Positions 1 through 32,208 of a stretch of DNA of 64,000 nt are shown here, in pieces. Position numbers and translations under genes: made by a program. Source of the DNA: Thermus hydrothermalis (lineage in GTDB: Bacteria; Deinococcota; Deinococci; Deinococcales; Thermaceae); the NCBI RefSeq assembly GCF_022760925.1, contig NZ_JAKTNT010000003.1, positions 1 through 64,000 on the forward strand, given 5' to 3'. The notes beneath the pieces were generated by a model. That model was given only the letters and a program-made list of their open reading frames with translations. It was not told where the DNA came from and ran no database searches. How positions within the stretch are numbered: position 1 is the stretch's first letter; every line of letters starts with the position of its first letter.

Positions 1-1
1 G

Positions 2-1270
2 TGGTCCCCCGAGCATAACTATCCCCAGGGTGCATAAGTGCAAGTTTTGAGCTAGGAGGTAGAGGAGAAGGCCAAGGGCGACGGCCCCCAGTATGAGGGG
101 GTTTGCGGTCAGGTGGAGGAGAATCGCCCCTGCTAGGAGGGCTAGGGCACTAACGTGAATAGCGCCCAAGGCGTTGAGGGCCAGGGCCATGGCGCTTAGG
201 AAGCTGAGAAAGCCAAAGCCCAGAAGGGGGGCGTGGTAGTCCCCGGACCAGGGGAGGCTGAGGAGCACGAGAAGGGTGGGCACGGAGGCGGTAAGGGCGT
301 AGGACCAAAGGGAGCGTTGAAGGGCAAGAAGAAGGGCTCCGGGGCTTGCCGTCTGCCAGAGGATTTTGGCCAGGGTTGTAACGAAGGCCGATAGCCGCAT
401 TTCCACCAAAATGGAGGCCAAAAGGTAGATCCCCAGCCCAACGAGAGCCCTATCGCCGGCCAAGTCCACCAACCTCCAGAGGACAAACCCCTGGCCCAAG
501 CCATAGGCTCCATACACCCACTCCCCCACCAAGACCTTGCCTAGGAAAGCAAAACTATCCCTTCGGAGGGGACTTGCCTGCTGAAGGAGGAGAACCAGGG
601 GGAAAGAACCCACCCAGAAGGGGCTCATCCCCGAAACCCGGAGGAGAATGGCCAGGAGGAGGAAGCCCGAGGCTACCCAGGCGGCCTTGTCCTCGAGGCC
701 CTTCAGGGTTAGCACCCCCACGGCAACCCAGGCCATGCCTGTGCCCCAGGTGGCCGCAAACCCCAGGTCCAGGGGGGCTGTGACGCTCACCCCAAGGACC
801 CCTACCCAGGCCAAAAGGCCCAGCACCCCTTTGGCCTCCGGGGGTTCCAGCTCCACCGCTGCCCTAAAGCTCACCCGGGCTGCCAGCTGACTCCAGGCCA
901 GGAGGAAGAGCGCTGTTAGCCACCCTAAAGACCCGGAGTTCCAAAAAGTTACCAGGGTGCCTCCAAGGGTGAGGGCCACCGCCAGGTGCCGAGGGCCCAA
1001 GGTGCCTCGAGGCCTGGGCGGCTTGGGTCTGGGTTGGAAGTCGCGCTGGGCCAGGGCGAAGAGAGCTTGGGCTAGGGCAAAGGTGCTGGGCAGGCCAAAG
1101 AGGCGCTCCACGCGGTAGCGGTTGTAGCCGAGGACCTCGAGGTGGGCGGCAAGCTCGTAGGGGTCACTTATTTGGCTTAGGAGGTCCTTTAAGGTGTGCG
1201 CGAGCTCGCTAAGGCCTTGGGGATTTCTGGGAGGGGGGACGGAAGGGCGGTACTCGCCCCGGGCGCTCAT
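2..1270 (-). CDS. Polytopic membrane protein of the exopolysaccharide locus, partial (3' end outside window)
   Basis: An open frame runs leftward from ATG at 1270 to the window edge without a stop (at least 423 codons). It overlaps the PelF-like gene by ATGA, so the two are translationally coupled. The first ~90 residues are soluble (start MSARGEYRPS), with a short helical stretch around YELAAHLEVLGYNRYRVERL. The remainder is many hydrophobic segments with short loops, giving probably ten or more TM helices in the full protein. Position next to a PelF-like glycosyltransferase suggests the membrane translocation partner, the role PelG plays in Pel systems. The N-terminus does not look like the PelG I know, so I leave the family open. 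The C-terminus cannot be judged. Confidence 0.75.
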   Translation of the reverse strand, partial: MSARGEYRPSVPPPRNPQGLSELAHTLKDLLSQISDPYELAAHLEVLGYNRYRVERLFGLPSTFALAQALFALAQRDFQPRPKPPRPRGTLGPRHLAVALTLGGTLVTFWNSGSLGWLTALFLLAWSQLAARVSFRAAVELEPPEAKGVLGLLAWVGVLGVSVTAPLDLGFAATWGTGMAWVAVGVLTLKGLEDKAAWVASGFLLLAILLRVSGMSPFWVGSFPLVLLLQQASPLRRDSFAFLGKVLVGEWVYGAYGLGQGFVLWRLVDLAGDRALVGLGIYLLASILVEMRLSAFVTTLAKILWQTASPGALLLALQRSLWSYALTASVPTLLVLLSLPWSGDYHAPLLGFGFLSFLSAMALALNALGAIHVSALALLAGAILLHLTANPLILGAVALGLLLYLLAQNLHLCTLGIVMLGGP

Positions 1271-2688
1271 TCGGGTACCTCCAGGGAGCCTTGAAGGGCC
1301 AAGGCCTCGTAGATGTTGGAGAACTCCTCTAGCATACGTTTAAGCGTGTACAGGCTCAGGACCTTTTCCCGTGCCTCCTTGCCCTTCGCCAAGCACCGCT
1401 CGGGGTCCTGGAGGAACCCCAGGAGCGCCTCTCCTAAGGCCTCGGGGTCCATGGCGGGCACCACCTCCCCCACGCCCTCCAGGACCTCGCCCACGCTCCC
1501 CACCCGGGTGCCCACCAGGGTGCGCCCCACGGCCATGTTCTCGATCACCGTGTAGGGGAAGCCCTCGGAGATGCTGGAGAGCACCCCCACCCACCCTCGG
1601 TGGTAGGCCTGGTACACGGGGCTTGCGGGGCCCATGAAGCGCACGTTGCCCTCGAGGCCTAGTTCCTTTACCCGGGTGCGAACGCTTTCCGCATAGGCTT
1701 CGTTTCCCCGGGGAACGGGACCGAAAAGGAGGAGTTGCGCCTCTGGAAGGGTTTCGCGTACCCGTCCGAAGGCGTCCACCAAGGTGAGGAGGTCCTTTAG
1801 CGGGTCAATCCGGCCCACCCATACGGCGGTGGGTGGGTTTTCCAGACGCGCGGGAGCTTCTGGGAACTGTGCGGGGTCAATGCCGTTGGCCACCACCTGG
1901 ATGCGTTTGGGGTCCGCGCCGAGCTCCACCTCCCACTGCCGGTTGAAGCGGCTCACCGTGGTGATAAAGTGGGCCTCCCGGTAGGCCAGGCGGCTTACGA
2001 GGTGGTAAAAGCGGGCTTGGACCAGGCGCTCCGCGGGGGAGGGGTTGGTTTCGCTAAAGGCCAGATAGCGCTCCCTCAGGAAAACCCCGTGCTCGGTCAG
2101 AAGAAAGGGTACGCCCAGGTGCCGGGACACCAGCCAAGCGGGGATGACGGCAAGCCCGCCGCTTGTGGCGTGGATCAGGTCCACCTCGGGGATGGGATCT
2201 AGGGCCAGGAGGGGAAGGAGGGTGGAGCGAAGCCAGTGCAAGACAGCAAGCCCCTCCCCCAGGGTAGGCGGACGGCCCAAAAGGAGCGTGAGCCTTTCGG
2301 CCAGGAGCGCCTGTACTTTGGGGTGGAAGAAGAGGTTGTACAGGTGGCGCTTGCGCAAAAGGAAGATTTCCCAAAGCCCTTCTTGAAAGGTGGCTAGGTC
2401 CAGGTCTAGGAAAGCCAGGAGCTTGCTCAGGGCCGGCAGGAGGGCATGCAAGGGAGCGGGGGCAAAAGGGGATGCGTGGGGGGGGCGGTAGAGGTGAAGG
2501 GTTCTCAAGGAGGCTTCCGGGGGAATGGGTAGGGCGGGTTTAGCCTTTTGCGGTCCCCACAGGGCAAGGACGGTGAACTGGGCCTCGAGGCCAAAGAGGA
2601 GTTGCTCGCACCAGCGGCTCACTCCTCCCATGGCGTAGGGATACGTGCCTTCTGTGACGAAAAGAACCCTAAGGCGCTTGGATCGCAT
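1267..2688 (-). CDS. PelF-like GT4 glycosyltransferase
   Basis: 473 aa, GT-B fold. The N-terminus carries RVLFVTEGTYPYAMGGVSRW, the pattern of PelF-type transferases, where the tyrosine/glycine loop lies beside the nucleotide-sugar site. A central LLTEHGVFLRER segment and the C-terminal GT4 signature EGFPYTVIENMAVGR (the E-x7-E motif, near residue 390) are present. PelF uses UDP-sugars to polymerise the GalNAc-rich Pel polymer in the cytoplasm; that this protein uses the same donor is inference. Its start lies inside the end of the deacetylase gene (2669) and its stop overlaps the next gene by ATGA, so it sits in the middle of one operon. No membrane segment or signal peptide is visible, as expected for a cytosolic enzyme. 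Confidence 0.85.
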   Translation of the reverse strand: MRSKRLRVLFVTEGTYPYAMGGVSRWCEQLLFGLEAQFTVLALWGPQKAKPALPIPPEASLRTLHLYRPPHASPFAPAPLHALLPALSKLLAFLDLDLATFQEGLWEIFLLRKRHLYNLFFHPKVQALLAERLTLLLGRPPTLGEGLAVLHWLRSTLLPLLALDPIPEVDLIHATSGGLAVIPAWLVSRHLGVPFLLTEHGVFLRERYLAFSETNPSPAERLVQARFYHLVSRLAYREAHFITTVSRFNRQWEVELGADPKRIQVVANGIDPAQFPEAPARLENPPTAVWVGRIDPLKDLLTLVDAFGRVRETLPEAQLLLFGPVPRGNEAYAESVRTRVKELGLEGNVRFMGPASPVYQAYHRGWVGVLSSISEGFPYTVIENMAVGRTLVGTRVGSVGEVLEGVGEVVPAMDPEALGEALLGFLQDPERCLAKGKEAREKVLSLYTLKRMLEEFSNIYEALALQGSLEVPE

Positions 2689-4771
2689 ACGTTCCCGTCC
2701 CTACAAAACAGCGGTTACGACCGGCATACGCATCGCACGTGCTTGCTTGGATGCCCGTTACCCAGACGGGCTTGCCCTTTACGGTGACGGTTTGGGCGGC
2801 GGGGTCAATGACCGCCCGCACGCTTCCCGCATGTACTGCCTGATAGTGTAGGTAGCGCTTTAGGGCGCGCTCGCCGTATTCCAGCCAGGAGGGAGAGAGG
2901 AGGGGAAGGGTGCTATAGGTGGAGTATTTCTGAAGAAGTGTTTCTAGCCAGTCAAAGACCAGGTTCCTACCCGGGGCGAACTCCCGCAGGTTCGCCTGGT
3001 GGAAGTAGTGGCTTCCCCCGTCGGTGAGGAGGTGGTGCAGGGCTATGTTGGTTTCCTGGCCCAGGTACTCCTGGTAGCTGAGGGCACGCGTCCAGTAGGG
3101 GGCGGTGCCGTTTGGGGCGTACACGCTGTTGTAAGCGTTTACGGCCTCTTGGTCCGTGGTCACGTTGTAGAAGACATTGGTGGGCCAGTCTGCGGTCAGG
3201 TAAAGGCCAGGGGCCAGAGGATGGGGGAAGGCGCAGGTTCGGCATGGGGGCTTTTGGCTCTCCACGGACCAGTTGACCTTGGCAAAGCGGACCTTGTGTT
3301 CGCTTAGAGCTTGGAGAAAGTACGGGTTAGATGCGCCTAGGCCGTTGTCCTGACGGGGAAAGCCGTACGGGTTCGTGCCCTTCCAACCAAAGCCCGAGTA
3401 CTGCCCGCTTTTGAAGGCCCGGTGCTCGTAGCGAAGGCCGAGGAGGCTTGCGATCCGGTTGTTCTCGGCGATCTCCCTTCGGGCTTGGGCCAGGTCGGTG
3501 AAGTCCATGTCCCAGTGGGTGTAGGAGTGGTTGTAGAAGCGGAAGGTGTCCTTGAGGACCTGGGTGGCCTGTACGAGGTCGTCCGCCAGGTTTATGGGTT
3601 CAGCGGCCACCGCGCCCGAGGGGTTGCAGGGAACCAGGTTGTCGTTGGGGTTGGGGTCAGAAACCGCCCCACAGCCGTTGAGGGCAATGTCCAGGGTGAA
3701 GCCCTGGGCCACGGGGTAGGCGGAGCGTAAGCCCGCCTGCTTTTGGGCCACGGCTTGGGCCTCGAGGCCGCTTAGCCGGTAGGGGGTGGCGTTGCCCACC
3801 CCAGGTGCGTCGCCGATGACCTCGGTGGAGAGGAACCAGTCGTCCACGTCCGCCCGCAGGTAGCGGCCATACTCCCCTAGGTACACCCCCCGGGTGACCC
3901 AGCCGATGAGCCCCGGGGCGAGGAGCCAGGTGTGGAGGAGGTAGGGGCTTTGGTCAAAGGTGAGGAGGAGTTGCTCCCGCCCGTCGGCGGTGGTGCGCAC
4001 GATGCCGAAGACGTTGCCCTCCGCATCGGTAAGGAGCGGGGTGGCGGGGCAGGTGCCGCTTGGTGCTGCCTTGTAGGCGTAGGCGCGGCGCACGGGTAGG
4101 GTTCCCGTGAGGTCGGGGAAGACCGCCTGGCCTTCTGGGGTGAGGGTTAGGGGGTAGCTCTGGGCGAGGTCTATGCCGGCGGGGTCATTGGCCGCAGGGC
4201 TTGGGGTGAGGAAGCCTTCCACCGGGGTGAGGCAGCGGTCCTCGGGGTAAGTCCCGGGGTAGGTGTAGAGGATGAGTTCCCGCACCCCATAGTCCCGCTC
4301 GTAGGCCCAAAGGCGGTTCCAGTCCTCGGCCGTCATATAGAAGGTGGGCCCGGGCCAGGCGGCGAGCTGGCCCTCCGCCAGGATCACCCCTTGGAAGCGG
4401 CCCGTGCCATCGGGAAGGGTGAGGGAAACCTGGCTGAAGGGGGTTTGGCTCAGGTCCACCACCTCGTAGGGGATGAGGAAGGTTTCCAGGATGTCCCGGG
4501 CGGCGGCGAAGTGGGGGGCCGCCTCGGGGTTGGTGGAGGTGGTGAGGAGGAGGATGCGCGCCTCGTACCGGGCCCCGGGAAGGGCCTGGGGCCTTAGGGG
4601 AAGCTTCAGGGGCACGGGCCCCTCGAGGGCCGGCAGGGGGCGGCTCGGAAGCACCGGCAGGGCCGGGGGGGCGAGGGGAGGGCCTGTCACCTGGACCTTG
4701 GGCTTTGGAGGAGTCTGCCCCGTAAGGTTGCAGGCGGCGAGGAGGAGGGCGAGGAGGGCGAGACGGCGCAC
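2669..4771 (-). CDS. Agd3-like polysaccharide deacetylase lipoprotein (CE18/NodB type)
   Basis: 700 aa. GTG start at 4771 preceded by GGGGAGGT at good spacing. It begins with a lipoprotein signal (lipobox LLAAC, Cys about residue 14) and a Pro-rich linker. Residues ~65-290 form a beta-rich region in the position of the CBM87 module of fungal Agd3. A NodB-like catalytic domain follows, with RADVDDWF near residue 308 (paired aspartates, catalytic and metal-binding) and HSYTHWDMDF near residue 415 (the H-x3-H metal motif). Agd3 deacetylates galactosaminogalactan; the same act on the polymer made by the neighbouring PelF-like enzyme is inferred. The lipid anchor puts it on the outer face of a membrane. 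Only 4 nt separate it from the upstream lipoprotein gene. Alternative: a generic NodB deacetylase of another polymer. Confidence 0.75.
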   Translation of the reverse strand: MRRLALLALLLAACNLTGQTPPKPKVQVTGPPLAPPALPVLPSRPLPALEGPVPLKLPLRPQALPGARYEARILLLTTSTNPEAAPHFAAARDILETFLIPYEVVDLSQTPFSQVSLTLPDGTGRFQGVILAEGQLAAWPGPTFYMTAEDWNRLWAYERDYGVRELILYTYPGTYPEDRCLTPVEGFLTPSPAANDPAGIDLAQSYPLTLTPEGQAVFPDLTGTLPVRRAYAYKAAPSGTCPATPLLTDAEGNVFGIVRTTADGREQLLLTFDQSPYLLHTWLLAPGLIGWVTRGVYLGEYGRYLRADVDDWFLSTEVIGDAPGVGNATPYRLSGLEAQAVAQKQAGLRSAYPVAQGFTLDIALNGCGAVSDPNPNDNLVPCNPSGAVAAEPINLADDLVQATQVLKDTFRFYNHSYTHWDMDFTDLAQARREIAENNRIASLLGLRYEHRAFKSGQYSGFGWKGTNPYGFPRQDNGLGASNPYFLQALSEHKVRFAKVNWSVESQKPPCRTCAFPHPLAPGLYLTADWPTNVFYNVTTDQEAVNAYNSVYAPNGTAPYWTRALSYQEYLGQETNIALHHLLTDGGSHYFHQANLREFAPGRNLVFDWLETLLQKYSTYSTLPLLSPSWLEYGERALKRYLHYQAVHAGSVRAVIDPAAQTVTVKGKPVWVTGIQASTCDAYAGRNRCFVGTGTYAIQAP

Positions 4772-4775
4772 AGCG

Positions 4776-6731
4776 TTACCTCCCCTTTCTCGGCAGGCTC
4801 AAGGGGCTTAGCCCTAGACCCTGGGGCTGGACGCTACTTGCCCCGCTTCCTGGGTGCACCCCTGTGCCGTCCACGGTGAGAGCGTGCCACCACGTGTTGT
4901 ACCCATCGCTGATGGTTGGCGCGGGAAAGCTCGCCACCAGGTGGTTGGCATTGTAGACCTTTACCTGGCCCCCAGAGGTGTTCCAACTTCCTCCGCCGAA
5001 GTACCAGTGGACGTAAACGCGGTAGGCTCCCCCTTGGTAGACGAAGCGGAGGGTTTCCTGCCCGGGGCCTTGGGGGGTGTCCCCTTCCAAGCAGGCGGCT
5101 CCTGCGGGAGGGCAGGTGCCGGGGTTGTTCCAGTAGATGTGCTGGGCCGCCGGGGTGTCGGGATAGAAGAGGTGGAGGTCCAAATCGGCGCCTGCGGTCC
5201 AGGAGAGCTCCACCCGCCAGTCGGCGGCATAGGTGACGGTGAGGGTGAAGTCCCAAGACCGGGTGGCCCCACCTCCTTGGGGTGTGGCCTTGAGGCGCAA
5301 GGGGTAGGTTCCCGGTGGGGGGTTGGCCACCTGGAGGGCTACGGGTCCCCCGCTGGCGGGGAGGGAGGGGCTTGCCAGGCTAAGGCCAGGGGGAAGGGGG
5401 GTGCCGTCTTGACGCTCCAGCGTGAGGAGCAAAGGGGTGTTGAAGCCGTTTAAGGGCGTCAGCGCCACTTGGAGGCTCCCCGTGCCCTCCCAGGGCAGGG
5501 TGAGGGCGGTATCCCCCCCGAGGGAGAAGTCCGTGGCCTTGAGGGTAAAGCCCACCTCCCGCACCCGGCTTCCCCCCTCCGCCCGGAGGGTAAGGGGGTA
5601 GTCTTGGGGGCTGAGGTTCGGGTCCAGGGCCAGGGTTAGGGGGACGGAGATGGGGTTTCCGTTCAGGGTGATTGTGGTGGGGCTTAGGGTAATCCCGGGA
5701 GGGGGGTTTACCAGGCTCAGGTTCACGGGTCCGCTGAAGCCTAGGAGGGGAGTTAGGTGGAGGACAGCTTGGGCCTGGCCGCCCACGGGGGCGGAAGGTG
5801 TGCCTTCCAGGGACAAGAGGAAGTCTGGGGCGGTGCTGTTCACGGCCACCGCCCGGCTTCCGGCGCTTCCCGCGCTGAAGCGGATGGCCCCTTGGTCCAC
5901 GCCTTGGTTGGCCGTCACCCGGTAGACCTTCCCAGCGTAGCCCGAGGGCGTGTCGTCTTGGACCGCCAAGCCGCTGGGCGCTTGGAAGGTGACCGCGGGC
6001 AGGGGGCCGTTGCCCGAGTTTCCCACGAGGACAAGGGCGCTTTCCCCGGGGTTCAGGCTTAGAGCCAGGGGCGCCACCTCGAGGCCCGCCCCCAGGTTCG
6101 GGTTCACCACCTTGCGCAGAAGCCGCACCAGGTCTTGCTCGTCGGCGTAGCCGCTGGAGTCCAGGTCGGCGTGGTAGCGACGGTAGGGGTTCGGGGTAGC
6201 AGCCCCCGTAAGGAGGTCGGCGAGGAGAAGGGCGTCCGTTAAGCCCACGCTCCCGCTAGCGTTGAGGTCGCCCAGGGGGTTTTGGGCGAAAGCGGGATCC
6301 ACCTCGCCCTGGCTCACCCCGGGAAGAGGGGTATAGCTTTGGGAGACCACGTGGCCTTGAGGGGTAAGGCCGGCTTCCTCCCAGGAGAGAGTAGCCTGGA
6401 GAGCCTCCGTTTCTAGGAGGTGCGCCTCGGGCCTAGCTCCTGGCTTTAGGGCCTGGAAGCGGACTCGGAGCACTTCCCCCGAGAGGGCATGGTAGGCAAC
6501 CCCCGCTAAACGCACCCGGCCGGCCTCGAGGTGGGTTTCCGTGAGGAGGGGGCTTACGGGGCCCAGGTAGCGGAGGGCATTTGGGTCAAAGGTGATTTCC
6601 AAAAGAACTCCCCGCACGCTCTCCCCGTGCAAGACCCAGGCGCCTGCGCTAGGGTTCCGCACAAGGCTTTGAGGGTTACTACAGGCTGCAAGGATCAGCA
6701 GGGCGAGTAGGGTTAGGGCATTTTTTCCCAC
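4776..6731 (-). CDS. Modular lipoprotein with cohesin-like, dockerin-like and Ig-like domains
   Basis: 651 aa, GTG start with GGAGGTATAC in front. Lipobox LILAAC near residue 17. Residues ~30-125 resemble a cohesin-type beta sandwich (FDPNALRYLG, then LRVRFQALKPGA). Residues ~150-205 hold two dockerin-type loops, DLNASGSVGLTDALLLADLL and DLDSSGYADEQDLVRLL, with the Asp/Asn/Ser pattern of calcium-binding F-hand repeats. Several Ig-like repeats with the phrase FSGPVNLSL or similar follow to ~residue 500. The last ~130 residues (WRVELSWTAGADLDLHLFYP) look like the DUF2135-type C-terminal module. It is a paralogue of the next gene upstream. Probable role: surface scaffold or polymer-binding protein of the locus; not demonstrated. 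Confidence 0.75.
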   Translation of the reverse strand: MGKNALTLLALLILAACSNPQSLVRNPSAGAWVLHGESVRGVLLEITFDPNALRYLGPVSPLLTETHLEAGRVRLAGVAYHALSGEVLRVRFQALKPGARPEAHLLETEALQATLSWEEAGLTPQGHVVSQSYTPLPGVSQGEVDPAFAQNPLGDLNASGSVGLTDALLLADLLTGAATPNPYRRYHADLDSSGYADEQDLVRLLRKVVNPNLGAGLEVAPLALSLNPGESALVLVGNSGNGPLPAVTFQAPSGLAVQDDTPSGYAGKVYRVTANQGVDQGAIRFSAGSAGSRAVAVNSTAPDFLLSLEGTPSAPVGGQAQAVLHLTPLLGFSGPVNLSLVNPPPGITLSPTTITLNGNPISVPLTLALDPNLSPQDYPLTLRAEGGSRVREVGFTLKATDFSLGGDTALTLPWEGTGSLQVALTPLNGFNTPLLLTLERQDGTPLPPGLSLASPSLPASGGPVALQVANPPPGTYPLRLKATPQGGGATRSWDFTLTVTYAADWRVELSWTAGADLDLHLFYPDTPAAQHIYWNNPGTCPPAGAACLEGDTPQGPGQETLRFVYQGGAYRVYVHWYFGGGSWNTSGGQVKVYNANHLVASFPAPTISDGYNTWWHALTVDGTGVHPGSGASSVQPQGLGLSPLSLPRKGR

Positions 6732-6786
6732 GTATACCTCCGTTTATGGACCCGGGGTTGTCGCACTGCTCCGGCTTCGTAAGCAG

Positions 6787-6863
6787 CCTAGGATGGGGAA
6801 GGGAGCTGGCCAGGCTCATAAAGGAGGGATGGGGGAGGCGAAGGCAGGGCCAGACATCCTAGG
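6787..6863. other. Long-range inverted repeat in the 187-nt gap between lipoprotein genes
   Basis: CCTAGGATG (6787-6795) and CATCCTAGG (6855-6863) are perfect 9-bp inverted repeats 59 nt apart, in the otherwise gene-free 6732-6918. They could form a stem in the leftward transcript between the two paralogous lipoprotein genes, as a processing or attenuation structure. No U-tract follows, so it is not a standard terminator. Confidence 0.35.
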
Positions 6864-6918
6864 GAGCAGGGTATAGGTGGTAAGCACAAAGGGAAAAACC
6901 CCCGCATCCCCATTCCCC

Positions 6919-9117
6919 TTAAGGCGCTAGAACGAGGCTCCCTCCGCCTACTGAGGTGTCCTCCACGTAGTTCGCCTGGGTGAGTACCACGCCGCCCACC
7001 TCCAAAGTCCCGCCACCTGTTCCCGTGACGGAGAGAAGGGCGAGCTGTCCAGGCCCGGTAAAGGTGCTGCTGCACACCAAGACCACGTTCCACCGGTTCG
7101 GGTTGGAAGACACCTGCGCGAAGTCCAGGGTGCACCCTTGGGTGAGGGCCCCTGCGCCTGCGCTCAGGGTGAAGCCTGCAGGAAGCGTCACGCTGAACTG
7201 GGCAGCGCGGTAGGCCTGGGTGGTGCCCACCAGGTTCACCCCCACGGTGTAGGTGTTGCCTGTGCGTTCCAGGAGCGAGGGCTGGAGCGCCTTGGGCGCT
7301 TCGGCGACGGTAAGGGTAAAGGCACGGCTATGGGTAAGACCACCGCCCGTCGCCTCGAGGGTAAGGGTGTAGTCGCCCGGGGCCACATTAGGGCCCACAC
7401 GTAGGGTAATCGCTAGGGTGTTTCCGGTGGTGGGGTTTTCCGCAAAGGTGTAGGACACCTTATCGTTTCCGCTACCGAGGACGCTTCCGTTCAGGCTGAA
7501 GGTAATGGGACCAGAGAAGTGGGTGCGGACGAGGCTGACGTTCACCGTTCCCGAAGCTCCCTGCTTTAGGGTGAGATTGGCTGCGCTCACGGAGAAGTCG
7601 TAGAGGGTGAGGCTAAGGGGCTGGGTCCTGGTGAGGCTACCCCCGCTCGCCCGGACCTGAAGGGCGTAGAGGCCTGCCTCAGCGCTTCCTGCACTCACGT
7701 TCAGGGTTACTGGGCCGCTTGCGGGTAAGGTGGCGCTATTGGGCGTTAGCGTGAAGGATACAGAGTTTCCTCCCGCATCGGTGAGGCTAAGGTTCACACT
7801 TCCGCTGAAGCCGCCGTAGGTGGAAAAGAAAGCGTGTAGGCTCCCCGCACCGCCCACGGGCAAGGTAAGGGTGTTTTGGTCCAGGTAAAAGTCAAACCCG
7901 GGGGCTTTTTGGACCACTAGGGCGAAGGCCTTTTCCCGAACGATCGTCCCGCTTACCGCTCTAAGGCGAAGGGTATAGGTGTTGGGAGGTACGTTATTTG
8001 CCACGCTGAGGGTGAGGGTGTCGGTAAGGGGGCTGGATAGCACCACGCTGGTGGGGCTTTCTAGGCTTATTCCTGAGGGAGCGTCCAGCAGACTTAGGGT
8101 CACGGTGCCTGTAAAGCCGTTTTCCGGGGTTAGGGTGAAGTCCAGGCTGGCCATTCCCCCGGGCGTGGTGGTGGCGCTCGGGGCGCTTAGGTCCAGGCCG
8201 AAGCTTGGGAAAGGTGCGTGGACCCGGGCGGTGCGGGTGCCAGCATTAACCGCTTGGCACTGGATGCTCCCCTCCAGGGTATTCCCCTGGGCTTCCACCC
8301 TGTAGGCTTTGCCATAGGCTCCCTGGGGAGTTACGTCCGTTAGGGCGGTCCCTTGGGGATGGGAACAGGACACGCTGGGAAAGGCTCCGTTTCCGGAGTT
8401 ATTGAGGAGAAGGTAGGCGTGGGCTCCGGGGCCCAGGGCCAAGTCCTGGGGCGCAAGCTCCAGGTTGGGTTCCAAGCCCGGGTTTACGATCTTCCGCAAG
8501 AGGAGGGCGAGGTCTTGACCGGTTAAGGTTCCGCTGGAGTTAAGGTCCCCTTGGTAACGCTGGTAGGCGTTGGGGTTTTGGAGATTACCCGCCAGGATGT
8601 CCGCTAAGAAAACCCCATCCGTGAGGCTTACGCCCCCACTGCCATTCAGGTCACCCAAGGGGTTTTGCACGAAGGAGGGATCGGCTTCGTTTTGCCCGAT
8701 CCCCTGAACCACGGATTGGGGCAGGACCAAGGCTTGCGGTTGAAGACCGCCCCCTTTCCAGATTTGCCTGATCGCTCGTCCCTCAGGATAGGTTTCCACC
8801 ACCTGTACCTCGGGCCTTGCCCCGGGCCGGAGAACCTCAAAGGTCAGGGTGAGGAGGGGCCCTGAAGGTGTGCTGGGGGCCACGGCCACCGCGCGAACCC
8901 TCCCCCCTTCGGCGAAGGCTTCCGCCCCGTATGCGCCCTCTGCCCCCACGTAGCGCAAGGCGGCGGGATCAAAGTGGGCTTCCACCAAAATCCCCCGCAC
9001 GCCCTCTCCCTGGAGGGCAAGGGTCCAGGTTGCTGGATCACGGCTTGCCGGTTGGCTGCAAGCGCCCAAAAGCAAGGACAGCACGAATACTCTAGCAATA
9101 CGCCCGCGTTCTTTCAT
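6919..9117 (-). CDS. Modular lipoprotein with cohesin-like ends and dockerin-like module
   Basis: 732 aa from ATG 9117 (GGGAGG 4-5 nt upstream; an upstream TTG in frame is less likely). Lipobox LLGAC near residue 20. The N-terminal ~100 residues parallel the preceding entry (EGVRGILVEAHFDPAALRYVG). Two dockerin-type loops follow at ~160 and ~195 (DLNGSGGVSLTDGVFLADIL, DLNSSGTLTGQDLALLL). Four or so Ig-like repeats run to ~residue 600. The C-terminal ~125 residues (TVGVNLVGTTQAYRAAQFSV, LALLSVTG) again look cohesin-like. Unlike its paralogue it lacks the DUF2135-type tail. One polypeptide carrying both module types could link itself, its paralogue or locus enzymes into a surface assembly; the fold assignments are by eye. 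Confidence 0.75.
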   Translation of the reverse strand: MKERGRIARVFVLSLLLGACSQPASRDPATWTLALQGEGVRGILVEAHFDPAALRYVGAEGAYGAEAFAEGGRVRAVAVAPSTPSGPLLTLTFEVLRPGARPEVQVVETYPEGRAIRQIWKGGGLQPQALVLPQSVVQGIGQNEADPSFVQNPLGDLNGSGGVSLTDGVFLADILAGNLQNPNAYQRYQGDLNSSGTLTGQDLALLLRKIVNPGLEPNLELAPQDLALGPGAHAYLLLNNSGNGAFPSVSCSHPQGTALTDVTPQGAYGKAYRVEAQGNTLEGSIQCQAVNAGTRTARVHAPFPSFGLDLSAPSATTTPGGMASLDFTLTPENGFTGTVTLSLLDAPSGISLESPTSVVLSSPLTDTLTLSVANNVPPNTYTLRLRAVSGTIVREKAFALVVQKAPGFDFYLDQNTLTLPVGGAGSLHAFFSTYGGFSGSVNLSLTDAGGNSVSFTLTPNSATLPASGPVTLNVSAGSAEAGLYALQVRASGGSLTRTQPLSLTLYDFSVSAANLTLKQGASGTVNVSLVRTHFSGPITFSLNGSVLGSGNDKVSYTFAENPTTGNTLAITLRVGPNVAPGDYTLTLEATGGGLTHSRAFTLTVAEAPKALQPSLLERTGNTYTVGVNLVGTTQAYRAAQFSVTLPAGFTLSAGAGALTQGCTLDFAQVSSNPNRWNVVLVCSSTFTGPGQLALLSVTGTGGGTLEVGGVVLTQANYVEDTSVGGGSLVLAP

Positions 9118-9129
9118 GACACCTCCCAA

Positions 9130-9352
9130 TACGGACCCGCAAATGTGCGGGGTGGTGCAGAAGGTGTTCCTTCCCTTTCAGGCAGAAAAACAGAGGCCAC
9201 TTGGGAGAAACAAGGGGGATCTTTGCATAGATCTCTGCTCCCACCCCGTTATCCCAAGCCTAGAGAACCCAAAGGGTTTTGTCTTCCGCCCTCCGGCCTA
9301 GGCTTTTGAGGGATGAAGTTCTAAGTCTAGAATGTCTAAAGACCTAGGTCCT
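9130..9352 (-). other. Gene-free spacer with a stem-loop between hydrolase and lipoprotein genes
   Basis: No convincing ORF. The minus-strand transcript could pair AAGCCTAGG with CTAGGCTT around 9264-9304, enclosing a small AACCC/GGGTT hairpin. Placed after the GH114-like gene and ~140 nt before the lipoprotein start, it could be an intercistronic attenuator or stabilising hairpin. I looked for c-di-GMP-I riboswitch core bases and did not find them. Confidence 0.35.
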
Positions 9353-10741
9353 TTAGGGAACTTCCGTGAATTTGCCAAGGGCCACGTAGGGAAGGAAGCC
9401 CAGTTCCAACGCCCGCCTAAACGCGAAGTTAGCGGCCTCGGCGTTAGGGGCTTGGTCCAGGCTGAGGGCAGGCAGGCCCCGCCTCCGAAAGGGCCATACG
9501 GGGCTTGGGTCGTTCAGGATGATCTGGCCTTGGGCGTCCAGGGAGAGGCCTGAATAGACCACAGCATCTAGAAAGCGCGCGGTGCGCCGTAGCACTCGGA
9601 AGCCCCGGTGTTGCAGGAGCAGGGCTTGTGGGTGGCTTTCGCGCAAGCCTCGTACTAGGGCGGCAAGCTCGGGAACCTTTTCCGGATGGAGATCGGCGAG
9701 GTCCAGTCCGTCTAGGAAAAACCCCTCAAAGCCCAAGGCGAGAAGCCGGAACGCTTCAGCCCTCACGTGGGCTTGCCAAAGGGAGGACGAAGGGTCCATA
9801 AGAAGGGTGTCCGGAGCATAGGGGTTTGGACCCAGGACTGCTTCCCGGAGTCCTTTGCTCTCCGCTTCCCCTCGAGGCAGGACCCCTAAAGGAAGGTACG
9901 CCACCACCCTAACCCCGTTTTCCCGGAGCCCCCGCACCAGGCCCAAGGGGGCTTCCCGGGCCAGCACCACGAGTTCGTAGGCCTGGAGCCGGGCTAGCGC
10001 CCCCGGGTCCCCCCCATAGTAAAGCGCCCAGCGCCGGATGCCCTGAAGGCGGCTAGGTATAAGGGGGAGCAACGCTTCCTGGGCCTGGACCTGGGCTACC
10101 AGGACCTGGGGGTCTTTTGGGGCATCCACGAAGGCGAGGTAGCCGTAGTTGCCGGGGGAGTGAAAGTCGCCTCCCAGGGGCCAGAGGGTGTACTCCCTAG
10201 CCTCTGGATTTCCCCGGCCCACCTTAAGCTGCCAGATTTCGCCCAACCTGGGATGGGGAAGCACCCCGCCAAAAGGGATACGGAGCTCTGCCCACCAGCC
10301 TCCAGGAAAGCTGCCGGTCTGGGCTTCAAAGAAAAGGGGAGCTGTGTAGCGTTCAAACCGCACTCCCTTCGGATTGACCGCTAGGTGCAGGTCGGGAGCG
10401 TCCTCGTCAAAAGGGTTAGGGCGCAAGAAGACCTCCAGGGTATCGTCCTGCCACCACTCGGGGTCGTTAGCCTGGCGCTCCGCCTTGGGAGGGGTTTCTT
10501 GGCTGAGGCGGGCCACCAAGTAAAGGGCTTGGTCATCGTAGGTAACCTGGAAGGTGCCGGAGAACCGGGCAGTTTTAGGGGGATACAGGGTGGTGAGGTG
10601 TATGGAATAGGTGGGAAGCCCCGGATAGATGCCCATCCCCCAGGGACCTTTCGGCCGGGGCAAGGCCTGGGCCACCACCAACTCTTGGGCTAGGGATACC
10701 CCTCCAAAAAACACGAATACCATCACCAAAATGGAGCGCAT
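9353..10741 (-). CDS. Secreted CBM9-like plus GH114-like glycoside hydrolase
   Basis: 462 aa with a Sec signal peptide ending near SLAQ (residue ~19). Residues ~25-195 resemble a CBM9/DOMON-type carbohydrate-binding domain (TYDDQALYLVARL, DPEWWQDDTLEVFL, GGWWAELRIPF). Residues ~220-460 form a TIM-barrel-like region that opens RRWALYYGGD and continues LQAYELVVLAREAP, VVAYLPLG, LLALGFEGFFLDGLD. This is the pattern of GH114 and related endo-alpha-1,4-galactosaminidases such as Ega3 and the PelA hydrolase domain; the acidic residues of FFLDGLD sit where a catalytic acid is expected. First gene of the leftward locus. Likely trims or releases the polymer outside the cytoplasmic membrane; substrate inferred from the neighbours. 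Confidence 0.75.
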   Translation of the reverse strand: MRSILVMVFVFFGGVSLAQELVVAQALPRPKGPWGMGIYPGLPTYSIHLTTLYPPKTARFSGTFQVTYDDQALYLVARLSQETPPKAERQANDPEWWQDDTLEVFLRPNPFDEDAPDLHLAVNPKGVRFERYTAPLFFEAQTGSFPGGWWAELRIPFGGVLPHPRLGEIWQLKVGRGNPEAREYTLWPLGGDFHSPGNYGYLAFVDAPKDPQVLVAQVQAQEALLPLIPSRLQGIRRWALYYGGDPGALARLQAYELVVLAREAPLGLVRGLRENGVRVVAYLPLGVLPRGEAESKGLREAVLGPNPYAPDTLLMDPSSSLWQAHVRAEAFRLLALGFEGFFLDGLDLADLHPEKVPELAALVRGLRESHPQALLLQHRGFRVLRRTARFLDAVVYSGLSLDAQGQIILNDPSPVWPFRRRGLPALSLDQAPNAEAANFAFRRALELGFLPYVALGKFTEVP

Positions 10742-11011: not shown

Positions 11012-11056
11012 TGGTGGGCGATGGTGGACTTGAACCACCGACCTCACGCTTATCAG
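11012..11056. repeat. Prophage attachment repeat, left copy (3' half of tRNA-Ile)
   Basis: These 45 bp are identical to 32132-32176, the 3' part of the intact tRNA-Ile gene from the anticodon loop through the encoded CCA. Identity stops at 11011 on one side and 11057 on the other. The copy lacks the 5' half, so it cannot make a tRNA. It lies 19 nt beyond the end of the integrase gene. Confidence 0.92.
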
Positions 11057-11074: not shown

Positions 11075-12262
11075 TTAGGAACGGGGTTTGCGGCGGGAAC
11101 GGGGTTTTTGGTTGCCGTTGGTGCCTGCTGGTGCCCGTTGGTTCCGGCTGTTTAGGTGTAGCAAGGTGTCAAGGGGGAGGGCCCCAGCGCGGTGGTCCTC
11201 CTCCATGAGTTGCTGGTAGACCTTGACGGTGAAGGTGGGGTCTGCGTGCCGGAGGCGGGCCGCCACCACCTTGGGGGGGAGGCCCGCCCGGAGGGCGAGG
11301 GAGGTGTAGGTGTGCCGGAGGCCGTGGGGGGTGATGCGGGAGACCCCGGCCTTCTCCTGCAGGGCGTAAAAGGCCCGCTTGAAGTTGTTGTATTCCAGGG
11401 GTGTTCCTCGCTGGGAGGGGAACATGAGCCCGTAGTCCTGCCAGTCCGGGGTGGAAGCCTTCTCCTCCTCCAGGCGCTCCCGCCACCAGGCGAGGAGGGC
11501 TTGGGTGTCCGGGTCCAGGTAGATGGGGGCCACGCTTCCCGGGGTCTTGGCCGGGCCCAGGGTGCCGTCCCGGCGCAGGGTGTGCCGGACGTGGAGCACG
11601 TCCCCCTCCCAGTCCTCCCACCGGAGGGCCAGGGCCTCCCCGGGCCGGAGGCCGGTGGCGAGCATCAGGGCGAAGAGGGGGTAGAGGCGGTGCCCCTTGG
11701 AGGCTTCCAGGAACCGAGCCACCTCCTCGGGCTTCCAGGCCCTGGCCGGCCGGACCGCCCCGCCCCGTGGGGGGTCCACGGCGTCCATGGGGTTTTGGTC
11801 CAGGAGATCGGCCCGCACGGCGTCCCGGAGGGCGGCCCGCAGAAACTGGTAGATGTGGCGGCGGTGGGAAGGGGAGAAGCCAGCGAGATCGGCAAAGAAG
11901 GAGCGAAAGGTGAGGGGGCTGAGGCGGGAAAGGGGCAGGTGGGCTATGGGTTCCACATGCGTCAGGTACACGTGGTAGTTGCGGATGGTGGTGGGCCGCA
12001 GATCCTGGGTGGCAGCCCGGTGCTCAATCCAGGAAGCAAGGTAATCCCCGAGGCGCAGGCTGTGTGGGTCGGGAACCCAGCCCACGCCGGCCTTGGGAAG
12101 GAGCTTGGCCAGCTTTTCCGCCACCTCCCGGCGGGTGCGGCCATAGACCCACTTCTTGCGCTGGCGGCCGTCCGGGGTGTACCCGAGGGTCACGAAGCCG
12201 GCCCAGCGGCCATCCTTGCGCTGGAAGATGGAGCCTTCTCCTCTGCCCCGCTTGCGTTTCAT
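11075..12262 (-). CDS. int: Prophage tyrosine integrase
   Basis: 395 aa. The N-terminal ~60 residues form an AP2-like arm-binding domain (GEGSIFQRKDGRWAGFVTLG), followed by a SAM-like core-binding domain. The catalytic domain shows LATGLRPGEALALRW (first Arg), HGLRHTYTSLAL (His-x-x-Arg), RLRHADPTFTVKVYQQL (second His and the Tyr nucleophile). The extreme C-terminus is a basic tail whose DNA carries short direct repeats. The gene overlaps the gene in front of it by ATGA, making it the last gene of the leftward lysogeny operon, and points toward the left attachment site. It would catalyse integration into and, with an excisionase, excision from tRNA-Ile. Confidence 0.95.
   Translation of the reverse strand: MKRKRGRGEGSIFQRKDGRWAGFVTLGYTPDGRQRKKWVYGRTRREVAEKLAKLLPKAGVGWVPDPHSLRLGDYLASWIEHRAATQDLRPTTIRNYHVYLTHVEPIAHLPLSRLSPLTFRSFFADLAGFSPSHRRHIYQFLRAALRDAVRADLLDQNPMDAVDPPRGGAVRPARAWKPEEVARFLEASKGHRLYPLFALMLATGLRPGEALALRWEDWEGDVLHVRHTLRRDGTLGPAKTPGSVAPIYLDPDTQALLAWWRERLEEEKASTPDWQDYGLMFPSQRGTPLEYNNFKRAFYALQEKAGVSRITPHGLRHTYTSLALRAGLPPKVVAARLRHADPTFTVKVYQQLMEEDHRAGALPLDTLLHLNSRNQRAPAGTNGNQKPRSRRKPRS
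11153..11174. repeat. Candidate integrase arm-type sites, left end
   Basis: TAGGTGT followed 5 nt later by AGGTGTCAAGG, inside the 3' end of the integrase gene. Nearly the same tandem pair lies at 32062-32085 at the other prophage end in the same orientation. A pair near each attachment site suits arm-type recombinase or excisionase binding; inference only. Confidence 0.4.
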
Positions 12263-32131: not shown

Positions 32132-32176
32132 TGGTGGGCGATGGTGGACTTGAACCACCGACCTCACGCTTATCAG
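32132..32176. repeat. Prophage attachment repeat, right copy
   Basis: 45 bp identical to 11012-11056. It is the 3' part of the intact tRNA-Ile, from the first anticodon-loop base to the CCA end, so integration keeps the tRNA whole. Confidence 0.92.
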
Positions 32177-32208
32177 GCGTGCGCTCTGACCAGCTGAGCT
32201 AATCGCCC
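32132..32208 (-). tRNA. tRNA-Ile (GAU)
   Basis: 77 nt on the minus strand. Acceptor GGGCGAT/ATCGCCC, D stem GCTC/GAGC, anticodon stem CACGC/GCGTG with loop CTGATAA (anticodon GAT at 32172-32174), T stem GGTGG/CCACC with TTCAAGT, discriminator A and encoded CCA. All stems pair perfectly. The 3' half is shared with the prophage attachment repeat. Confidence 0.97.

Follow-up and report, generated by a model that had tools for sequence, protein, structure and literature searches.

A probable Pel/galactosaminogalactan-type gene locus with an Agd3-like deacetylase, a PelF-type glycosyltransferase and a MOP-like membrane protein in Thermus

The fungal deacetylase Agd3, encoded in the galactosaminogalactan cluster of Aspergillus, acts on alpha-1,4-linked N-acetylgalactosamine (GalNAc) (PMC7229062). 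Bamford et al. (2020) found homologs of it in Deinococcus-Thermus and Actinobacteria, most of them encoded in or near operons, all of which contain a cytoplasmic glycosyltransferase and a polytopic protein, and often GH114 genes (PMC7229062). The deacetylases of the bacterial Pel systems have been assigned to CE21 for PelA (PMC12022489) and to CE26 for Bacillus PelADA (PMC13254593), and the substrates of GH114, GH166 and GH191 enzymes are polymers of galactosamine (GalN) or GalNAc (PMC12054363). Here we describe a locus of this kind at the left end of a contig of Thermus hydrothermalis (NZ_JAKTNT010000003.1, positions 1 to 64,000; the window hereafter, meaning the whole stretch of 64,000 nucleotides that was analysed). 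Most of the idea of such a locus is already in print in Bamford et al. 2020 (PMC7229062). The Thermus locus is likely to encode the synthase-dependent export of a Pel/galactosaminogalactan-type surface polysaccharide, one that is rich in alpha-1,4-GalNAc and partly de-N-acetylated.

A first-pass annotation of the window, made from the letters alone, had described one leftward gene set including two lipoproteins and a polytopic protein. That description holds: there are six open reading frames (ORFs) at the coordinates it gave, all on the minus strand. The genes, and the element end that interrupts them, are as follows.

9353 to 10741, minus strand: GH166L, a Sec-secreted protein of 462 amino acids with a CBM9-like N-terminal domain and a C-terminal PelA-type GH166 barrel (Pfam CBM9_1, PDB 9cgy, paralog alignment).
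6919 to 9129, minus strand: LP1, a lipoprotein (lipobox) with a putative dockerin-type Ca-binding repeat and cohesin/Ig-like modules; its likely start is the ATG at 9117.
4776 to 6731, minus strand: LP2, a second putative dockerin-type lipoprotein of the LP1 kind (Dockerin_1 below the cut-off, ortholog above it).
2669 to 4771, minus strand: Agd3-like lipoprotein polysaccharide deacetylase of 700 amino acids with lipobox LALLLAAC (PF25115, PF25116, PDB 6nwz, AlphaFold2 (AF2)/Foldseek).
1267 to 2688, minus strand: PelF-type GT4 glycosyltransferase of 473 amino acids with an E-x7-E motif (NF038011, DUF3492).
2 to 1270, minus strand: MP, a polytopic membrane protein that runs off the contig; its last 15 residues are insertion sequence (IS) sequence (AF2 fold, junction comparison).
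1 to 51, no strand assigned: end of an IS-like element with terminal repeat CTCAAAACTTGCAC; the target duplication is CTAG (4 bp), and contig C32 holds the other side.

The genes from LP2 to MP overlap their neighbours or lie within 4 bp of them, and the gaps between the two upstream genes and those that follow are 223 bp (GH166L/LP1) and 187 bp (LP1/LP2), so a single transcript across all six is plausible. A scan for promoters and terminators gave nothing exceeding shuffled expectation.

The strongest evidence comes from the protein encoded at 2669-4771. It matches both curated Pfam models built on Agd3, the catalytic domain (Agd3_CE, PF25115; 41.3 bits, E = 1.3e-10) and the carbohydrate-binding domain (CBM87_Agd3, PF25116; 30.5 bits, E = 3.9e-7), each against a cut-off of 27.6 bits. 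In a phmmer search of the PDB, Agd3 itself (6nwz) is the only significant match (E = 1.8e-13). The AF2 model (predicted local distance difference test score, pLDDT, 85.4; predicted template modelling score, pTM, 0.87) matches 6nwz_A over its full length in Foldseek, with an E-value of 3.8e-37 and template modelling (TM) scores of 0.72/0.76, human NDST1 coming second. It contains the three domains of the Agd3 fold, a CBM87-like domain, a CE18-like domain and a C-terminal beta domain, at an identity to Agd3 of only 18% over the structural alignment. By profile and predicted structure, then, this protein is an Agd3-type (CE18+CBM87) lipoprotein, with homology far above chance. The first-pass annotation had noticed paired Asp and H-x3-H deacetylase motifs here; both are present, as D310/D311 and H415/H419, and by its profile and structure matches the protein is CE18-like. 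The catalytic positions are as follows.

3839 to 3844, minus strand: motif CM1, Asp310-Asp311 (base and metal ligand), invariant in 29 aligned sequences.
3515 to 3529, minus strand: motif CM2, His415-x3-His419 (metal ligands); H419 is found in 28 of 29 aligned relatives.
3188 to 3190, minus strand: position of motif CM3, Asp528 here and Arg613 in Agd3 (alignment to 6nwz).
2999 to 3001, minus strand: motif CM4, His591, aligned with Agd3 His668 (catalytic acid).

The glycosyltransferase gene at 1267-2688 had been described as having a PelF pattern, and its product scores 161.8 bits against the NCBIfam PelF equivalog NF038011 (cut-off 100) and 128.7 bits against DUF3492, and has the E-x7-E motif. 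Its ortholog on the megaplasmid pTB1 of T. brockianus GE-1, which carries the entire gene set, is already named pelF in the RefSeq annotation. MP is encoded directly after PelF, the usual place of PelG, and is matched by no Pfam or NCBIfam model. Its AF2 model (pLDDT 83.5) has fold-level matches in Foldseek to the MOP-superfamily proteins MATE, WzxE and MurJ, and its Thermus and Meiothermus forms are homologous (99.3% in hhalign). We rejected MP as a PelG: hhalign against a true PelG (one that scores 519 bits) gives a probability of 0.1%, and PF16933 does not match. MP probably works in PelG's place all the same.

These results bear on the possibility that the locus is simply a Pel operon of the ordinary pelDEADAFG type whose genes have diverged. 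The PelF score above cut-off is what such an operon would give, Gram-positive Pel loci likewise encode deacetylase and hydrolase separately (PMC7112168), and in Polaromonas genes for PelF-like and Agd3-like proteins adjoin a true PelG (locus L135). However, 27 Thermus genomes contain no match to PelG (PF16933) even at E = 10, and PelG is found in none of 111 Deinococcota genomes by a search that detected its positive control (Thermotoga maritima); no link between MP and PelG emerges in hhalign; phmmer against PDB chains links the deacetylase to Agd3 and not to PelA (CE21); and no pelD or pelE gene was recognised in the locus. We consider an ordinary Pel operon quite unlikely, and as regards PelG and the deacetylase family it is largely refuted. 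The first-pass annotation saw no PelB- or PelC-type parts, and no gene in or beside the locus was recognised as such (the whole genome was not searched). The Polaromonas locus (L135:1350-10000) is of mixed type: two Agd3-like genes adjoin a diverged PelF and the true PelG, which scores 519 bits.

The operon does not naturally stop at the left end of the window. In another genome of the same species (G011) the uninterrupted order is GH166L, LP1, LP2, Agd3, PelF, MP, GH166S and then a convergent GH191 gene. GH166S is a 234-residue GH166 paralog directly after MP, overlapping it by 20 bp; it matches PelA (E = 2.9e-13) and keeps both catalytic residues–for example, Asp106 and Glu157 form the catalytic pair in L075:12745-13446. 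It has no leader: in Thermus and Meiothermus, as in most Actinomycetota loci, the protein starts within a few residues of the first strand of its barrel. The convergent gene's product has its best match in Env-GH191 (9ep5, E = 2.5e-73), followed by TmGH191 (2aam, E = 1.3e-29), which makes it a GH191 rather than a GH114 enzyme; its Asp/Glu pair is kept, its lipobox marks it as a lipoprotein, and in T. brockianus GE-1 the gene is named endo alpha-1,4 polygalactosaminidase. Since the left flank holds GH166S and GH191 galactosaminidases, the genes there belong to the same pathway, as the first-pass annotation had supposed, and the deacetylase and the hydrolases are indeed separate proteins.

The window's own hydrolase-like protein, GH166L, is a different case. 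The first-pass annotation called it a secreted, GH114-like hydrolase. A Sec signal is present, and CBM9_1 matches at 28.6 bits (Pfam cut-off 23.4); membership in GH114 we rejected, as PF03537 reaches 13.4 bits where its cut-off is 27. Instead, residues 240-454 match PelA (PDB 9cgy_A, E = 4.6e-11), making the barrel GH166/PelA-type. The proposal that the enzymes are nearer to the fungal ones than to PelA fails for this protein; only the deacetylase tends towards the fungal type. The two catalytic positions are as follows.

9710 to 9712, minus strand: codon of Asp344, corresponding to the catalytic Asp160 of PelA (PMC12054363), invariant in 16 sequences.
9551 to 9553, minus strand: codon of Ser397, at the site of the PelA catalytic Glu (alignment with the paralog GH166S).

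The Glu position was located through PDB chains 5tcb/5tsy, which differ by E to A there, and Ser also occupies it in three further aligned Thermus orthologs. Because Ser397 replaces the catalytic Glu, GH166L is probably not an active hydrolase and is more likely a binder of the polymer than a cutter. The CBM9-GH166 gene on pTB1 of T. brockianus GE-1 (L152 15882-17277) is annotated as two ORFs and may be broken.

A CBM9 domain and several galactosaminidase-fold genes could also serve to degrade or scavenge galactosamine polymers of foreign origin, particularly as ABC transporter genes lie upstream of the GE-1 locus on pTB1. Against this, PelF and a MOP-type exporter belong to biosynthesis, Agd3-PelF-MP is the core that is conserved, and the ABC genes are not kept upstream in T. 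brockianus YIM 77927, for which reason we dropped the transporter as a part of the system. We regard a degradative function as very improbable.

The export reading draws further support from distribution. The Agd3 gene is present in 8 of 27 Thermus genomes, and Agd3, above-cut-off PelF and MP occur in an identical set of 27 of the 111 Deinococcota genomes. In public sequences, 60 of 79 Agd3 loci also have PelF and MP, with the order Agd3-PelF-MP in nearly all, and a GH166S-type gene is present in 30 of these 60; the search models contain some of the public-locus sequences counted, which biases the counts towards those. The module is also found in Actinomycetota, Myxococcota and Chloroflexota. 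The operon of Meiothermus granaticius has an additional nucleoside triphosphate (NTP) transferase and a nicotinamide adenine dinucleotide (NAD) epimerase, which fits the expected supply of nucleotide sugar, and Actinoplanes-type loci have an NTP transferase of the same kind. More tentatively, these loci may form a separate class of poly-GalNAc secretion common to Deinococcota, Actinomycetota, Myxococcota and Chloroflexota, a possibility to which we give less than even weight. Such a class would have a fixed Agd3-PelF-MOP module, an exporter unrelated in sequence to PelG, and editing or clearing by a leaderless cytoplasmic GH166 before export, with a dead CBM9-GH166 protein and dockerin-type lipoproteins retaining the polymer in Thermus. 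An uncultured Deinococcales genome, CALHRJ01 (G072), has at least eight Agd3 paralogs, several within proteins of more than 1000 amino acids (L027, L047, L051, L112, L123, L124, L128, L131).

From gene content, protein families, the status of catalytic residues, synteny and co-occurrence we infer the substrate, the polymer, the direction of transport and the accessory roles, and the inference of a GalNAc polymer as the product is well founded. PelF would polymerise UDP-GalNAc in the cytoplasm, and the MOP-like MP, in PelG's place, would move the chain across the inner membrane. Outside, the Agd3-like lipoprotein would strip some of the N-acetyl groups to leave a cationic chain, and the GH191 lipoprotein would trim the deacetylated polymer. 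GH166S may clear or trim polymer inside the cytoplasm. GH166L and the dockerin-type lipoproteins would retain the polymer at the surface, or the lipoproteins may hold enzymes instead.

Several observations weigh against this scheme. The similarity of MP to MOP proteins is at the level of fold alone (best E-value 2.4e-3, TM 0.4-0.5). Thermus is diderm, yet no exporter of the outer membrane was identified, and PelD (PF16963) gave no match in the 27 Thermus genomes in a search that detected no positive control. The co-occurrence counts are uncorrected for shared ancestry. Finally, the CM3 Arg (R613 in Agd3) is replaced by Asp528 in the window protein, so deacetylase activity could be altered. At this position the aligned Thermaceae and Actinomycetota have Asp, Val or another residue and never Arg, which is kept in the aligned Trueperaceae-, Nitrosospira-, Myxococcota- and Chloroflexota-type relatives. 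CM3 is conserved in fungi and in most, not all, bacterial Agd3 homologs (PMC7229062); because exceptions are thus permitted, we class the window protein as a divergent CE18 homolog. In most sequences that have lost the Arg, the loss is accompanied by a His or an Arg seven positions ahead of the CM1 Asp (alignment A6).

The missing Arg and the 18% identity to Agd3 would also suit a deacetylase that has drifted from Agd3 and acts on a different amino-sugar polymer, for example one containing GlcNAc or mixed Gal/GalNAc. Mixed polymers exist in the genus: the exopolysaccharide of T. aquaticus YT-1 contains galactofuranose, galactopyranose and GalNAc (PMC11433292). We nevertheless think a different polymer doubtful, because every hydrolase around the locus whose catalytic residues are intact comes from a family that cuts GalN/GalNAc polymers (PMC12054363). 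We claim no link between the locus and TA-1, the exopolysaccharide of T. aquaticus YT-1, that species not being among the named Agd3 matches.

The dockerin assignment of LP1 and LP2 is weak. Dockerin_1 scores 17.7 bits for LP1, with E-values of about 0.02 for dockerin PDB chains, and 19.4 bits for LP2, both below the cut-off; the LP1 ortholog on pTB1 is named dockerin type I repeat-containing protein, and an LP2 ortholog (L022:5975-7948) passes the cut-off at 25.3 bits. Other Thermus species have an extra, partly LP1-like protein between LP1 and LP2 that is missing in the window strain (L017:16162-16920, L020:14367-15335).

In the window strain the locus is interrupted. Position 1 is the first base of contig C3, which starts inside an IS-like insertion; bases 1-51 are also found at the ends of two other contigs of the same genome and in many Thermus plasmids. 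Compared with G011, the insertion lies in the last codons of the MP gene, with a 4-bp CTAG duplication and inverted ends CTCAAAACTTGCAC/GTGCAAGTTTTGAG. It replaces the last 15 residues of MP by IS-encoded ones and moves the next gene to contig C32 (G000:C32:1-57). Because the conserved C terminus of MP is truncated and GH166S is cut off, the locus may be impaired in this strain. On the other side of the locus lies an integrated element of about 21.1 kb (11012-32176), flanked by direct repeats of 45 bp at 11012-11056 and 32132-32176 and sitting at tRNA-Ile(GAT) (32132-32208), with an integrase at 11075-12262; the element is absent from G011. The sequence beyond it is hardly plasmid-like (about 3% of 24 kb matches any plasmid), which suggests a chromosomal site.

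New here are the recognition of the exporter as a protein other than PelG, with a predicted fold like that of MOP proteins, its strict co-occurrence with Agd3 and PelF, the resolution of the hydrolases into GH166 and GH191, a GH166S that lacks a leader, a GH166L that has lost the catalytic Glu, and the IS-like interruption. An exporter family that has no Pfam or NCBIfam model appears to stand in PelG's place, and its strict co-occurrence, together with the absence of PelG, makes it possible to test directly by what route a GalNAc polymer passes the membrane when PelG is lacking. A GH166 enzyme with no leader points to a hitherto unstudied step in the cytoplasm. The locus also offers thermostable, separately encoded Pel/galactosaminogalactan enzymes in a genus that includes naturally competent laboratory strains.

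Among described systems, the bacterial agd3 operons (PMC7229062) share an Agd3 homolog, a cytoplasmic glycosyltransferase, a polytopic protein and at least one GH114-like gene with the Thermus locus. They differ in that the Thermus glycosyltransferase passes the PelF model, MP is MOP-like and not PelG, the hydrolases resolve to GH166 and GH191, and there are a leaderless GH166, a Glu-less GH166 and dockerin-type lipoproteins. The Gram-positive pelDEADAFG operon (Whitfield et al. 2020, PMC7112168) likewise has PelF, a separate deacetylase and PelA-type hydrolase, and a polytopic exporter after PelF, whereas the Thermus deacetylase is of CE18 type, as against CE26/CBM114 for PelADA (PMC13254593), and its locus has no PelG and no recognised PelD or PelE. 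Pseudomonas pelABCDEFG (PMC12022489) resembles it in PelF, a GH166-type hydrolase and the de-N-acetylation of a GalNAc polymer, but there PelA is a hydrolase-deacetylase fusion with a CE21 domain, and PelB, PelC and PelG are not seen at the Thermus locus. Finally, the Aspergillus galactosaminogalactan cluster has Agd3 and alpha-galactosaminidases in common with it, as well as an epimerase with some of its relatives, whereas Thermus has a bacterial PelF, a MOP-type exporter and GH191/GH166 enzymes in contrast to GH114 Ega3 and GH135 Sph3.

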